Origin: Eriocheir sinensis
Taxonomy: Eukaryota > Arthropoda > Malacostraca > Decapoda > Varunidae
NCBI RefSeq assembly: GCF_024679095.1
Contig: NC_066513.1
Coordinates: 8,422,049 to 8,486,048 of the forward strand
DNA: 64,000 bases
Reading direction: 5' to 3'
A program made the translations under genes and the position numbers. Shown piece by piece: positions 25,086 through 55,496 of the stretch; position 1 is the stretch's first letter; each line of letters starts with the position of its first letter. The notes under the pieces are model-generated. The model searched no databases. It was not told the origin of the DNA and was given only the letters and a program-made list of their open reading frames with translations.

Positions 25086-26260
25086 GTGAGTCAGCAGATG
25101 ATGCGAGTCAGCAGTGTGATTCAGCAGGTGGTGTGAGTCGGCCGATGGTGTGATAGCAGGTCGTGTGTTTATGCAGCATGATTTAGCAGGTGGTGTGAAT
25201 TAGCAGTGTGAGTCAGCAGGTGTTGTGAGCTAGCAGTGCGAGTCAGCAGGTGTTGTGAGCTAGCAGTGCGAGTCAGCAGGTGTTGTGAGCTAGCAGTGTG
25301 AGTCAGGAGGTGTTGTGAGCTAGACGTGTGAGTCAGCAGGTGTTGTGAGCTAGACGTGTGAGTCAGCAGGTGTTGTGAGCTAGACGTGTGAGTCAGCAGG
25401 TGTTGTGAGCTAGCAGTGTGAGTCAGCAGGTGTTGTGAGCTAGACGTGTGAGTCAGCAGGTGTTGTGAGCTAGACGTGTGAGTCAGCAGGTGTTGTGAGC
25501 TAGCAGTGCGAGTCAGCAGGTGTTGTGAGCTAGACGTGTGAGTCAGCAGGTGTTGTGAGCTAGCAGTGCGAGTCAGCAGGTGTTGTGAGCTACACGTGTG
25601 AGTCAGCAGGTGTTGTGAGCTAGACGTGTGAGTCAGCAGGTGTTGTGAGCTAGAAGTGTGAGTCAGCAGGTGTTGTGAGCTAGACGTGTGAGTCAGCAGG
25701 TGTTGTGAGCTAGACGTGTGAGTCAGCAGGTGTTGTGAGCTAGACGTGTGAGTCAGCAGGTGTTGTGAGCTAGACGTGTGAGTCAGCAGGTGTTGTGAGC
25801 TAGACGTGTGAGTCAGCAGGTGTTGTGAGCTAGACGTGTGAGTCAGCAGGTGTTGTGAGCTAGCAGTGCGAGTCAGCAGGTGTTGTGAGTTAGCAGTGTG
25901 AGTCAGCAGGTGTTGTGAGCTAGACGTGTGAGTCAGCAGGTGTTGTGAGCTAGCAGTGCGAGTCAGCAGGTGTTGTGAGCTAGACGTGTGAGTCAGCAGG
26001 TGTTGTGAGCTAGCAGTGTGAGACAACAGGTGTTGTGAGCTAGCAGTGTGAGTCAGCAGTGTGAGACAACAGGTGTTGTGAGCTAGCAGTGTGAGTCAGC
26101 AGTGTAAGTCAGCAGTATATGTCAGCAGGTGGTGTGATTTAGCAGGTGGTGTGAGTCAGAGGGTGGTGTGAATCGGTAGGTCATGTGAGTCAGCAGGTGG
26201 TGTGAGTCATGAGGTGATGTGAAACAAAAGTGGCAGGTGACGTGAATCAGCTGGTTGTGT
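25086..26260. repeat. 30-bp minisatellite starting at the exon c splice donor
   Basis: Unit GTGAGTCAGCAGGTG plus TTGTGAGCTAGACGT (two related 15-mers, period 30), about 30 regular units from about 25200 to 26030, with degenerate 15-mers at both ends. The first copy, GTGAGTCAGCAGATG at 25086, is the intron's 5' splice site itself. Long minus-strand reading frames (SSQHLLTHT repeats) result from the period. Confidence 0.95.
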
Positions 26261-33119: not shown

Positions 33120-34230
33120 CCACCAAGACCACCACCATCACCACCCTCATCATTATACCTTCATCACCATCCCTTTCATGAAGCTTCACCACCAACACCA
33201 TCACCACCCACATCATTATAAACCTTCACCATCACCATCCCTTTCATGAAGCTTCACCACCAACACCATCACCACCCACATCATTATAAACCTTCATCAC
33301 CACCATCCCTTTCATGAAGCTTCACCACCAACACCATCACCACCCACATCATTATAAACCTTCATCACCACCATCCCTTTCATGAAGCTTCACCACCAAC
33401 ACCATCACCACCCATATCATTATACCTTCACCATCACCGTCCCTTTCATGAAGCTTCACCACCAACACCATCACCACCCATATCATTATAAACCTTCATC
33501 ACCACCGTCCCTTTCATGAAGCTTCACCACCAACACCATCACCACCCATATCATTATAAACCTTCATCACCACCGTCCCTTTCATGAAGCTTCACCACCA
33601 ACACCATCACCACCCATATCATTATAAACCTTCACCATCACCATCCCTTTCATGAAGCTTCACCACCAACACCATCACCACCCATATCATTATACCTTCA
33701 CCATCACCGTCCCTTTCATGAAGTTTCACCACCAACACCATCACCACCCATATCATTATAAACCTTCATCACCACCGTCCCTTTCATGAAGCTTCACCAC
33801 CAACACCATCACCACCCATATCATTATAAACCTTCATCACCACCGTCCCTTTCATGAAGCTTCACCACCAACACCATCACCACCCACATCATTATAAACC
33901 TTCATCACCACCGTCCCTTTCATGAAGCTTCACCACCAACACCATCACCACCCATATCATTATACCTTCACCATCACCGTCCCTTTCATGAAGCTTCACC
34001 ACCAACACCATCACCACCCACATCATTATACCTTCACCATCACCGTCCCTTTCATGAAGCTTCACCACCAACACCATCACCACCCATATCATTATACCTT
34101 CACCATCACCGTCCCTTTCATGAAGCTTCACCACCAACACCATCAGTATCAGCATCACCACCATCATCACGTCCACCACCCACATCATTTTACCTTCATC
34201 ACCACCATCCCTTTCATGTAGCCTCAATAC
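33120..34230. repeat. 65/68-bp minisatellite, about 16 copies
   Basis: Unit contains CCCTTTCATGAAGCTTCACC, ACCAACACCATCACCACCCA, and either CATTATAAACC (68-bp form) or CATTATACC (65-bp form). The two length forms alternate irregularly. Both are near multiples of the CAC trinucleotide that flanks the array, so it probably arose from a CAC tract. It lies in the FN3-gene intron between exons c and d. Confidence 0.92.
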
Positions 34231-39613: not shown

Positions 39614-40612
39614 GTTCATGCTTCTTTCTTTGTGTAACCAGGGGATTAATTCTCCCAGGGGTCCTGCGTCCCTGCCCTATGGTGAGCAGTCAGGCCAGCC
39701 CCTGATCTGGGCTGGTTGGGGGAGGGGTTTGCACCCCCTCACCCCACATAAAAATCATCCCTAGCCAAAAACAAATTAAAAAGTAGAGGTCGGGGTCGAG
39801 GCCCGAGCCTCGACACCGATCAGGTCTTTCTGGGGGGCCTGACCGCGCGGCAGGCTTCCACGATGCATCCCCATCTGGGGGACCTGCCGTCAGTGACGGG
39901 TGCAAGGCAAAGCCTACGGGATCCCAGCACCTAGAAGGAGGAAGGGCCCCCTACCCCCTCTTTTTGTTTTTGGGGTGGCCGGGGTGGTGCAGAGGCTGCG
40001 CCCGCCCGCAGAAACAGGCCCGGGGTTAACCTTCGGAGGGATCTGCGTGCGGGCTCCTGGAACGTCCGGAGACTCTCGGACAATGATCGACTGCCCTACC
40101 TATCAAATGAGCTCAGAAGGCTGAGGGCAGACATAGTGGCATTCTCTGAGACGAGGAGGCCTGGCAGTGGCGAGATCAGTAAGGGGGGGGTACACCTTCT
40201 ACTGGTCCGGCATGAGCAATGGCTTCCATCTCAAGAGGTTAGCTATAGGCATCTCCAGCCAACTGCTGCCATTTGTGGTTGAGGTTTCTCCGTTTGAGGA
40301 GCGTATAATGCGAGTGAGGCTGACACACACACTGGACTTCATGTCTCTTGTTGCAGTGTACGCTCCAACTGAGATGCGTGAAACTGAAGAGAAGGTGATG
40401 TTTTCGACGCCAAACTCGACTCCGTATTAGGCCAGTGTCCCTCCCGGGACACACTCATTATCCTGGGCGACGTCAGTGCTACTACTGGCACTGACAGGGT
40501 TGGTTACGAGCTATGTGTTGGTCCCCATGGTCCTGGTACCAGAAACATCAACAGCTCTCTCCTCCTGAATTTTGCAAAATCCAGAAGGTTGATAATTGCG
40601 GGTTCCTTGTAC

Positions 40613-40969
40613 AGTTGCGGTAATGAGTTCCTGTACCCACTGTGGTAAGCCTTCCCTCCAACCGGCAACGTCGCAGTAGTATTACTCAAGTGTTGTTGTG
40701 AATGAACGGTGTTCGGGTGAGAGTGGCGGAGAGGTTCACTGCTATTCAGGAAGTGTAAGGGAGGCTTTATTCATAATTAAGAGGTGAAAATAAATGTAAC
40801 ATGCGTATGTAACACATGTTAAACCAAGATACCACTACAAAATAATAACAGCAGAGAGAAGACGAGACGTATTATCTTGAGTCCAGACTTTGATGTTCCG
40901 CTCCTCCAGCATTCACGTGTGAACGTGTGCACACACACTCTCTCTCTCTCTCTCTCTCTCTCCTTCAGA

Positions 40970-41050
<81 letters not shown>

Positions 41051-41793
41051 TTGACGGTTTGCTTGCCTGCACACTACACCACCATTCAATAGTTCACACT
41101 GTGTTATGAGAGCAGAACCCACATGTAAGAGGTTGCTGTGGGTTACTGTTAACCTACTATAGTGAATCATGGCAGTGCCATGGTAAAGTGGCATATACTT
41201 ATTTGGAGTTGATAGTCCTTCACTGTATGGGTATAATTTAGGTGGTGTGTTTCGAAACCGTGGTCACGTGACGCCCACCATGGCTGAGTGCGTATAACAT
41301 ACTTCATGCAATAGTTTGTGGACCTTGCTCCTTTTAGTTAAGTAATATTGTATTTTATCACCAGCGTGTAGGTAGTAAATGTACAACAAACATTTGATCA
41401 GGTTCATGTTCATTGTGGGAGGTGTTCATGGTTTTTCGCATTCTCGTATGCTATTACTACCAGTGTGCACACGTTCACACGTGAATGCTGGAGGAGCGGA
41501 ACATCAAAGTCTCGACTCTAGATAATACGTCTCGTCTTCTCTCTGCTGTTATTATTTTGTAGTGGTATCTTTGTTTAACATGTGTTACATACGCATGCTA
41601 CATTTATTTTCACCTTTTAATTATGAATAAAGCCTCCCTTACACTTTCTGAATTGCAGTGAACCTCTCCGCCACTCACACCCGAACACGACGAACACCGT
41701 TCATTCACAACAACACTTGAGTAGTACTACTGCGACGTTGCCGGTTGGAGGGAAGGCTTACCACAGTGGGTACAGGAACTCATTTCCGCAACT
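40613..41793. mobile_element. 1.18-kb element with about 325-bp TIRs, GTAC duplication
   Basis: Left arm 40613-40934 is a close inverted copy of 41463-41793: AGTTGCGGTAATGAGTTCCT at the left end, AGGAACTCATTTCCGCAACT at the right. It is flanked by GTAC on both sides (40609-40612, 41794-41797). Removing it and one GTAC restores the RTE endonuclease reading (IIAGSLY | QRPELHRWTWY). The 528-bp centre has (TC)n at 40939-40962, (GA)n at 40974-41046 and no transposase. Short ORFs in the arms (TTATLPVGGKAYHSGYRNS) are mirror copies of each other. Superfamily unknown. Confidence 0.88.
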
Positions 41794-42621
41794 GTACCAG
41801 AGACCAGAGCTGCACCGCTGGACTTGGTATAGCGATGCCGGAGTGGTAGCTAAGGAGATTGACAACATCCTCGTAAGTACTCGTTGGAGGATCCTTCAGA
41901 ACTGCAGGGTTTACCAGAGTAATTAGTTATCTGCAACTGGCCATAGGCTTGTTGCTACAACACTCAAGTTTCATGCCATGTCAAGAAGAATCGCGAGAGG
42001 CATCACTATTGTGTTCCATCTCGAAAGGCTGAAGGACCTGGCATGTGCTCAGGAGTATGCATTGACAGTCTCAAATCTGTTCGATGTGCTCAGCACCCAG
42101 GAGAACCCTGTATAACAGTGGAATACCTTCAAACGTGAGACTTTGCAAGCTGCCAAAGAGTGCATTGAAGAGTGCCCGATATCTTTATTTTATTTTATTT
42201 TTATTTTTTACAGCTAAGGAGACAGTTCAAGGGCGTAAATAAAATAAAAAAAGCCCGCTACTCACTGCTCCCGTACAGAGGTCAAAGGAGTGTCCAAAAC
42301 GAGAGGTCAATTTCGGGAGGAGAGGTGTCCTGATACCCCCCTCTTGAAAGAGTTCAAGTCGATGGCAGGAGGAAATACAGATGAAGGAAGGATCTTCCAG
42401 AGTTTACCAGCGTGAGGGATGAAGGAGTGAAGATGCTGGTTGACTCTTGCATAAGGGATTTGGACAGTATAGGGATGAGCATGAGTAGAAAGTCGTGTGC
42501 AGCGGGGCCGCGGGAGGAGAGGAGGCATGCAGTTAGTAAGTTCAGAAGAGCAGTCAGCATGAAAATATCGATAGAAGATAGAGAGGCAACATGGCGGCGG
42601 AATTTGAGAAGTAAAAGACTG

Positions 42622-47220: not shown

Positions 47221-47730
47221 GGGGGTGGGGTGGGGGGGCTTGTCCTGCTTCTTCCCCGTCATTACGGGAGTGAGGCAGGGCTGTGTCCTTGCGGAGCATC
47301 CATTGGCAATACCAGGGTCACTGACCTTGTTTTTTTGCCGATGATACAGTAATCCCGGCGGAGTCTCTAAAGGTTTTGGTGATGGCTCTCGAGGCACTGC
47401 ACGAGGAGGCGAAGCCCTTGGGGCTTCAGGTCTCCTGGGCCAAGACCAAGATACAGGTGTTTGGAAGCTTCTTAGATAAAATAGTACAGTCTGTTCATGC
47501 GTGTGGCGAGGATGTTGAGATCTCAGAAAGTTTAACGTATCTTGGTAGCGTATTTTATAGCAACGGTGAGTCTGGTCAGGACGTTTTACGGCGTTATGAA
47601 CTCGCTCAGCACGAGTATATGGCGTTGTCGATACCTGTGCAGAAGGACAGAGATCTGGATCTTCAAGTCTTTTGTGCTCCCTGTCTTACTCTATTTTTGT
47701 GAGACATGGACACTAAAACTAAATACTCAG

Positions 47731-48084
47731 GGTAGGCGGTGGCTGAACGGATAGCGAGACGGCCCCGCGTTCAGGAGGACGCAAGTTCAATCCCCGCCCG
47801 GTGCCACCAAGCTGGGATTTTTCAGCCGCCGCCGAGTGGCTTAAAACTACCCACATGCTGTCCAGAAGACCACCTATCAACCCGGACTCTAGATTCTAGG
47901 ATTAATGATGATCCGGGAGGGCATCATGTGCCAATGCAAGATGGCACCACTATAAAACACTCGCTTGCGCCAGGACGGGCTGGGCCGACCATCAGGCCCC
48001 ACCGGGAAGAAGCCTTGGACCGACCATCAGGATCCACCGGGAAGAAGCCTACCGGCGCAATAGGCCAAGACGAAAAAAAAAAAA
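47731..48084 (+). mobile_element. SINE 1 (tRNA-headed), full-length
   Basis: Head GGTAGGCGGTGGCTGAACGG (box A TGGCTGAACGG) and AAGTTCAATCCCCGCC (box B), body to 48060 with CCGACCATCAGG repeated twice (about 47986 and 48018), and poly-A at 48073-48084. It lies between RTE ...WTLKLNTQG and DLERRIDAFGN, so it inserted after the RTE. Confidence 0.92.
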
Positions 48085-53074: not shown

Positions 53075-53781
53075 TCAGGTTTCTTCTTCTTTGCTTCCAG
53101 ACATCTTGTATTAAGCCACTCTTATTTATCCTTTTTCTTTATCACATAGTAGGGTACCCACTTTATTACACTTTCATACGTTTTAAGAAAGTAATCATAT
53201 TTTTGTTGTACTTTCCTCAGCTTTTTTTCATTTCTGACCAATTTATTCTTTCAAAAATAGCTCTCCGATCATTTTACCTAGCTTTATTGTGATTTCTTCT
53301 TTTCTCTTTTCGGTTTTATAATCCGATCTCTTCACTTTCTTCGTCAATTTCTATTTGTAATAATTCATGGTCACTTTCTCCCAGTAGGCACTCGTGTTGC
53401 ACTTCCCTTAATAAGTTTATTCCTTTAGTGAAAATTTAGTCCAATCTTGCTTGTTCATCTTCTTTAAATCTTGCCTCTTCCTTTATCCACTGTGTCATGA
53501 GGGTTTCTGTGGCCAATTGTATTACATTTAATACATTTTTCCAGTTAGTCTCCTATTAGAATTACATTTTTCCGATTTTTAATAATATTCTCAAATGATT
53601 TACGTCTACCTTCTAGCAGGTTGTTATAAATTTAATTTGTCCAGTTTGCTGTGTGTGGGGGCACATATGTCACCATTACTATCAGTTGTTCACTGCATTT
53701 CAGCTGTAATAAAACACTTAAAATTTCCGTATTATATGGTCCGGTTTTCACTTTTACCACCTTTTAATTTGATTTGACTAA

Positions 53782-55496
53782 AGCCCCGTTCACACTGTGC
53801 CGACTCTGGGCCACGACAACCCAGCAACTTATGCATTTGACAAGTCGGCTCCCACGCTCCAATAAATTTTTGGCGTCTTGGTGTCGGCTACCATGAATGC
53901 CGACTGTCTGGGACATTCGGCCAACTAGTTGGCAGCATGTTTGCAACATGCTGCCAACTAGTCTCAAGACGAGTCTCAACGGTCATTTCTTTTAAATGGC
54001 ATCATGTCTATGACAACCACGAATCTGCCGACCAGTCTTCCAGATTGTCTGTCAACTGGTTGGCCGACCAGCTGGCCGACAGTTGCCAAGGAGTTGGCCG
54101 ACGGTCTTCCTGACGGTCTTCGCGACTGTCTTGGCGGCAGCCTTGCTGTTCCTTAAAATACGGAATCGCTCTGTATTCGAGAATGAAATGTATCGTTCCG
54201 TTTTGAACCAATACGGAACGGCATTTGTTCCGTACGGTATTTCGTTATATGAATGGTCAAGCAGATAAAATTCAGTATCTTAAAATTGTAGTGGAGCGCA
54301 TTTTTCGGTTAATCACAAAACCAGCCCGTAAAATTTGTCAAAGGTTCGTCCAAAAATACGTGTAAAATACGCGACGTAACGTCCCTCCTCCCTCCCTCTT
54401 GCCTCCACCAGCAGCCTTCTGCTGCTGTCACTCATTGGATGCTCGAGAAATTTTAGGGTTGCCACTCGTTCCTTTAAATATGGATCTATTCCGAATTGGA
54501 GAGTGAGATGTTGCATTCCACATTTTTCTGACCTCAGGGTGGCAACCCTAGTTGTGTCATTCAACACAAGAGAGATCGAGGCAAAAGGAGTGCGTGCCTA
54601 CTGTGCGGCTCCCTAGTTTGTGCCAGCGAAACGTAACCATGCCCAGTTGTTATTGTGCTTGTGATTGCAAAATAAAAATATAAATTTCTTGATGGCGGCA
54701 GTGTTAGCCAATATTTCTGAGCCGACAGTCGTCACGAACGTCCTTCATTAGGCGAAGACTGTCGTCACGACAGTCCCTCATCATTCTTAAGTAGTCAGCA
54801 CAGACGACTGTGCCGACAGGAAACTGTAAAACTTTGTAAAATGGCCCCGACGGTTGTCACGACTGTATCAAGACAAGCCAAGACTGTTGACGACAGTCGT
54901 CACGACTGCCCCAGACCTCCCTCAAGCCCCGCTCACACTGTGCCGACCATGGGCCACGACTACCCACGACTCTAGGGTACAAGAGGTCTTGGGTGTTAAT
55001 GTGAAAGGGTCGGGCGTGTCTTGAAAGAGGTCTTGAGACTGTTGCCGGATGCTGCGCCGACGTCGTGACGGGAGTCTGGAGTCGTGAGGGTTAGCACGAC
55101 ATGTTGGCAACTAGTTGGCTGAATGTCCCAGACAGTCGGCAAAACACCAAGACCCCAATAAAACCCCCCTTCTTGGAGCGTGGGAACCAACTTGTCAAAT
55201 GGAAAAGTCGCTGGGTTGTCGTGGCCCAGAGTCGGCAGAGTGTGAACGGGGCTTCAGACCTCAACCGGAAGTAACGGTTGGTCCAGACTCTTGCCGACTC
55301 TGGTCGTGAAAGTTTAGCATGGAATACTTTTTTGCGCTACCCCTCACGACTCCAGACTCCCGTCACGACGTCGGCGCAGCAGTCTCAAGACCTCTTTCAA
55401 GACATGCCCGACCCTTTCACATCAACACCCAAGACCTCGTGTACCCTAGAGTCGTGGGTTGTCTTGGCCCAGAGTCGGCACAGTGTGAACGGGGCT
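53782..55496. mobile_element. second Harbinger-like TIR element with nested copy
   Basis: TIRs AGCCCCGTTCACACTGTGCC at 53782 and GGCACAGTGTGAACGGGGCT ending 55496, extending inward through GACTCTGGGCCA. Flanking TAA (53779-53781) and TTA (55497-55499) fit a TWA site. The interior holds short inverted and direct motifs (GACAGTCGTCACGAC, TTGGCCGAC, CAACTAGTTGGC) and no long ORF. It is interrupted at 54925-55253 by a shortened relative of itself in inverted orientation. Confidence 0.82.
54925..55253. mobile_element. 329-bp MITE nested in its relative, inverted
   Basis: Starts AGCCCCGCTCACACTGTGCC and ends GAGTGTGAACGGGGCT, with TCA on both sides (54922-54924 and 55254-55256). Its left half (to about 55090) is the inverse of 55335-55496 (right end of the outer element) and its right half the inverse of 53782-53950 (left end of the outer element). 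It is therefore an internally deleted copy inserted backwards. Confidence 0.85.

Follow-up and report, generated by a model that had tools for sequence, protein, structure and literature searches.

The window, a 64,000-bp stretch on contig C5 of a 1.77-Gb genome (G000), contains an element of 1,181 bp (40613-41793) that is abutted by GTAC at both ends and interrupts a retrotransposon (Table 1). Aligned in inverted orientation, its two arms are 94.3% identical across 331 columns (E ~1e-142), the left arm having a single 9-bp gap relative to the right, and its middle begins with (CT)n and (GA)n microsatellites. An inverted-repeat element flanked by GTAC is thus confirmed at this locus, as a sequence-only reading of the same DNA had described it, with near-identical inverted arms of 322-331 bp and GTAC on both sides. 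Elsewhere in the window, units of 30 bp and 68 bp form long tandem arrays (25086-26059 and 33128-34145).

Table 1. Features of the GTAC-flanked element and its host sequence (window coordinates)
Feature	Position	Strand	Basis or remark
Second GTAC of the interrupted retrotransposon	40536-40539	.	Empty in the window
Left GTAC	40609-40612	.	Target duplication; single GTAC in empty sites
Left inverted arm, 322 bp, starts AGTTGCGG	40613-40934	+	Arm alignment
AGTTGCGG	40613-40620		Alternative start CAGTTGCGG from 40612 under TA duplication
Non-coding middle, common to other full copies	40935-41462	.	
(CT)n microsatellite in middle	40938-40962	.	
(GA)n microsatellite in middle	40973-41046	.	
Right inverted arm, 331 bp, terminates CCGCAACT	41463-41793	-	Arm alignment
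CCGCAACT	41786-41793		
Right GTAC	41794-41797	.	Target duplication; single GTAC in empty sites

A pattern consisting of GTAC and the first 15 terminal bases had 42 exact matches in the genome and 207 when up to two mismatches were allowed, compared with 0 and 10, respectively, for the reversed control. Searching the genome with the left arm returned at least 41 matches (from the scoring of 40 among 228 initial candidates). We read 32 regions around left-arm matches, which together with the window gave 33 loci (L-numbered), and both ends were present in 16 of them. Twelve of these two-ended copies measure 911-1433 bp and are 92-96% identical over aligned bases, with the exception of L023 (75-83%), whose middle differs from that of the other full copies; the other four (L032, L019, L025 and L024) span 1,892-7,518 bp. 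The shared middle was found in both orientations relative to the search match. A majority consensus of ten copies is 1,180 bp long and has arms that are identical over 332 bp, from which the 26 arms of 13 copies differ by 0.009-0.055 substitutions per site. One 984-bp variant (L043), which ends in AGTCGCGG and is flanked by GTAC at both ends, is an internally deleted form of this element. We read the full copies as the likely product of amplification of one deletion derivative.

Together, these results support a non-autonomous repeat family with common ends, of the MITE-like type of inverted-repeat DNA transposon: many copies have the same inverted ends, the consensus is devoid of a transposase of its own (its longest stop-free stretch is 81 codons, in agreement with the lack of coding capacity noted from the window alone), and the target is duplicated upon insertion, as comparison of filled and empty sites reveals. 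The sequence-only reading had proposed such a family and a genome search for its other copies. Copies were indeed found, with the same ends and nearly always beside GTAC, and neither differing ends nor a differing duplication length turned up among them.

The copy number of the family is inflated because part of the copies arose by segmental duplication. At least 29 of the 100 matches listed, out of 207, represent a single variant, GTACATTTGCGG, on contig C23, where it spans 6.17-15.69 Mb; the five loci read from it (L034-L038) share flanks, and the cluster appears to be a large segmental amplification that includes a piece of retrotransposon. Flanks are also held in common by L019, L024, L025 and L026. 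Both groups are what would be expected if an old inverted repeat had multiplied through segmental duplication or recombination, without any transposition. We consider this very improbable as a general account: most of the twelve full copies end at GTAC within unrelated flanks, and precise filled and empty sites exist. Segmental duplication as the sole cause is refuted because the flanks are distinct. At two further loci, C17:21514744 and C1301:105763 (L047 and L049), the right flank is shared and the left is not, a pattern that flank exchange through recombination between copies would produce.

Fifty ends were gathered by fuzzy match, 40 of which were distinct by their 14-bp flank. Exact GTAC was present in 30 of these 40 flanks, against a background in which GTAC starts at 159 of the 64,000 window positions. 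The ten exceptions include TTAC, ACAC, GTGC, GCAC (twice) and GGAC, as well as a spurious hit within L011, an end of L011 displaced by a missing base, and the right ends of L023 and L032, where the flank is lost. GTAC occurred on both sides of 8 of the 16 two-ended loci, and on both sides of L011 if one base is taken as deleted. Taken position by position, G, T, A and C were conserved in 36, 32, 35 and 37 of the 40 ends, respectively; the first eight terminal bases were conserved in 35-39, the outer G, T and A slightly less. Genome-wide, next to an otherwise intact 15-base terminus, the outer position was not G in two places, both belonging to one duplicated locus, and the inner position was not C in two places. 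Among the 100 matches listed, 58 had one mismatch, and in two of them the tetramer was altered. Other deviating targets, on the element's strand side, were GTAA on C4 and ATAC on C21; the opposite end of the latter (C21:7109626) was absent from the 261 bp read. Six further end pairs do not count as independent evidence for GTAC because they were selected by a GTAC match (or one mismatch further in). Outside the tetramer the preference is softer, with G or T adjoining it in 35 of 40 ends, then T in 19 and C in 18, which can be written CTG-GTAC-CAG. The counts argue for a near-obligatory palindromic GTAC target.

The empty site of the window insertion survives uninterrupted in L023, in L032 and in one duplicated cluster of five loci (L034-L038), where it reads TTCCTGGTACCAGAGACC and has one GTAC. 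These empty sites lie in other copies of the interrupted retrotransposon stretch; the empty site that had been reconstructed from the window was thereby found uninterrupted and with a single GTAC. The empty site of L039 likewise has one GTAC in L015 and L033-L038, with a more diverged relative in L016. For L010, a relative of the site within the window (47588-47739) reads GATACC and so lacks GTAC; a weak relative in L020 (68% identity) also has none, and neither of the two informs the comparison. The second GTAC in the host retrotransposon (Table 1) corresponds to a site that is occupied in L023 and L032, with some right flank lost; the loci of the C23 cluster (L034-L038) show it occupied as seen from its other side. 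The flanks of an end pair at C11:2683986-2685192 nearly match those of L039, and this site has therefore been struck twice or duplicated. That most ends adjoin GTAC would also be expected if the tetramer were simply part of the element and nothing were duplicated. This is ruled out because empty sites hold one GTAC and filled sites two, both for the window insertion and for L039, and we give it next to no probability.

The window element therefore belongs to a repeat family that has common ends, near-obligatory GTAC at both of them, single-GTAC empty sites and no coding capacity. We interpret it, with a probability of roughly 0.6, as a non-autonomous DNA-transposon family of ~1.18 kb with ~332-bp inverted arms, mobilized with a 4-base stagger over GTAC by a DDE transposase acting in trans. 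A DDE-type transposase supplied in trans would bind the long arms, excise the element and insert it at the palindromic GTAC through cuts staggered by 4 bases; subsequent repair would leave GTAC on both sides of an element that runs from AGTTGCGG to CCGCAACT. The DDE chemistry, the stagger of four rather than two bases and the provision of the enzyme in trans are the parts of this scheme that we infer.

The 4-bp duplication claimed in the sequence-only reading stands as far as the GTAC flanks and single-GTAC empty sites are concerned, but its length is less firm, since duplication of the TA inside GTAC leaves the same letters. If only TA were duplicated, the element would run from CAGTTGCGG to CCGCAACTG within an obligatory site G-TA-C, and the same filled and empty sequences fit both possibilities alike because the first base of the element would then be C. 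The family would in that case point to Tc1/mariner or to a PHIS relative with strict flanks. We regard this as a credible alternative of clearly minority weight. At one locus (L019/L024/L025) the left side reads TTAC and the right side GTAC, which fits an outer base that belongs to the target. Arguing the other way, the outer G is absent in only the two places mentioned above, both at one duplicated locus, and the inner C varies just as rarely. Internal direct repeats within the arms (IR/DR) are a feature of some Tc1 elements; here the outer 60 bases gave a best 16-24-base match of 62.5%, and no such repeat was found in the arms (in the control, shuffles reach 11-16 of 20). We prefer the 4-base stagger on two grounds: the outer G varies about as little as the inner C, and known strict TTAA targets are duplicated as whole tetranucleotides. 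Precedent for the TA alternative comes from ISL2EU, which has a 2-bp duplication with fixed outer bases, A-AT-T; for NuwaII, the authors were themselves unable to judge the duplication (PMC4482050).

Several known superfamilies share single features with this family, which we leave unassigned to any of them. Elements of Tc1/mariner resemble it in that TA lies within the duplicated unit and in that the ends, when counted from TA, begin with CAGT; such ends are common in Tc1/mariner (CAGTTG in Sleeping Beauty). The family differs from them in the near-obligatory G and C around TA and in its arms without internal direct repeats, and the TA that is duplicated here lies inside GTAC. Sola2 elements also have a 4-bp duplication. 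The comparisons that follow draw on parts of the cited papers. Sola2 elements as described have AT-rich duplications and arms of 12-21 bp (PMC3627910), unlike those seen here. Kolobok likewise has a 4-bp palindromic duplication and 5'-RR...YY-3' ends (PMC9587614). The ends of the present family are of this form (AG...CT) under the 4-bp reading, whereas the Kolobok target is TTAA and the target here is GTAC. Within PHIS (Harbinger, ISL2EU, Spy, Pangu and Nuwa), ISL2EU and NuwaII have short palindromic targets whose outer bases are fixed (PMC4482050). The duplications of PHIS members are TWA, AT, ANT, CWG or TNA, or the target is AAATTT without duplication; in that description, none of the six groups uses GTAC or TA (PMC4482050), and the GTAC found here matches none of the targets listed. 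Galileo, of the P superfamily, has long inverted arms like those of this family and a target given as GTAGTAC, but its duplication is 7 bp (PMC2775673), whereas none extends beyond GTAC here. The 7-8-bp duplication of Galileo and P is missing, as the bases beyond GTAC differ between the two sides. In Repbase, a non-autonomous element is classified by the length of its duplication together with its first 11 terminal bases (PMC4455052). Among the open-access papers listed for a GTAC duplication, titles and abstracts pointed to no transposon with this target, although PMC4178011 contains the word GTAC and such a target may well have been described.

More tentatively, and as an idea that we consider rather unlikely, the family may belong to a group with its own strict 4-bp palindromic GTAC target (softer form CTGGTACCAG), the enzyme representing either an undescribed lineage or a known superfamily that has switched target. 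A strict GTAC group, if real, would be a counterpart to the TTAA rule. Few eukaryotic transposons are known to require one particular tetranucleotide as target, and the familiar cases use TTAA. The family is of a familiar, clean non-autonomous kind, and its interest lies in the near-obligatory GTAC target, which gives a contrasting example of how a fixed palindrome is recognized and duplicated by a transposase. If the enzyme came to light, its insertion sites would be predictable; should it prove to be of a common type, the family would still give repeat annotation in this genome a clean example with filled and empty sites.

Longer copies were considered as carriers of the enzyme. Domains were scanned in nine ORFs from five loci, and no transposase-bearing copy was found among the ORF pieces of some long and one-ended copies. 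L019 (6.9 kb), to which L024 and L025 align over most of their length, carries a reverse-transcriptase ORF instead, and the ORFs of L013 are retrotransposon-like by eye. A P-type transposase (PF21788, PF21787) in L033 belongs to a separate insertion, a transposon of ~4.7 kb that is absent from L015 and is flanked by an 8-bp duplication, GTCAGACC. A Myb/SANT-like stretch in L034 lies behind an apparent retrotransposon and has no tie to the element end. At C42:3164166-3171671, exact ends lie 7.5 kb apart, and the 1,001 bp read there show a copy disrupted by a different repeat. The repeat inside this C42 element (L042) also has copies in the window (53781-53927 and 55112-55254). A pattern that kept the first bases and altered the continuation matched only one place, a mutated known copy (the end of L027). 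In the viral collection, two long terminus patterns had no match; an 18-base pattern occurred in one place (viral L001), where the arm is not continued and the surroundings are phage-like by eye, and this was taken as chance.

Most one-ended copies have microsatellite or inserted sequence behind the arm. Reverse-transcriptase sequence follows the arm and (CT)n in L019 and L012 (Pfam RVT_1) and, by eye, in L034 and L013, as if retrotransposons had landed in the (CT)n microsatellite that adjoins the arm. Low-complexity open frames of several kb lie behind the arm in L017 (4818-9861), L027 (977-6141) and L029 (6958-9871, all in oriented coordinates) and are probably expanded microsatellite.
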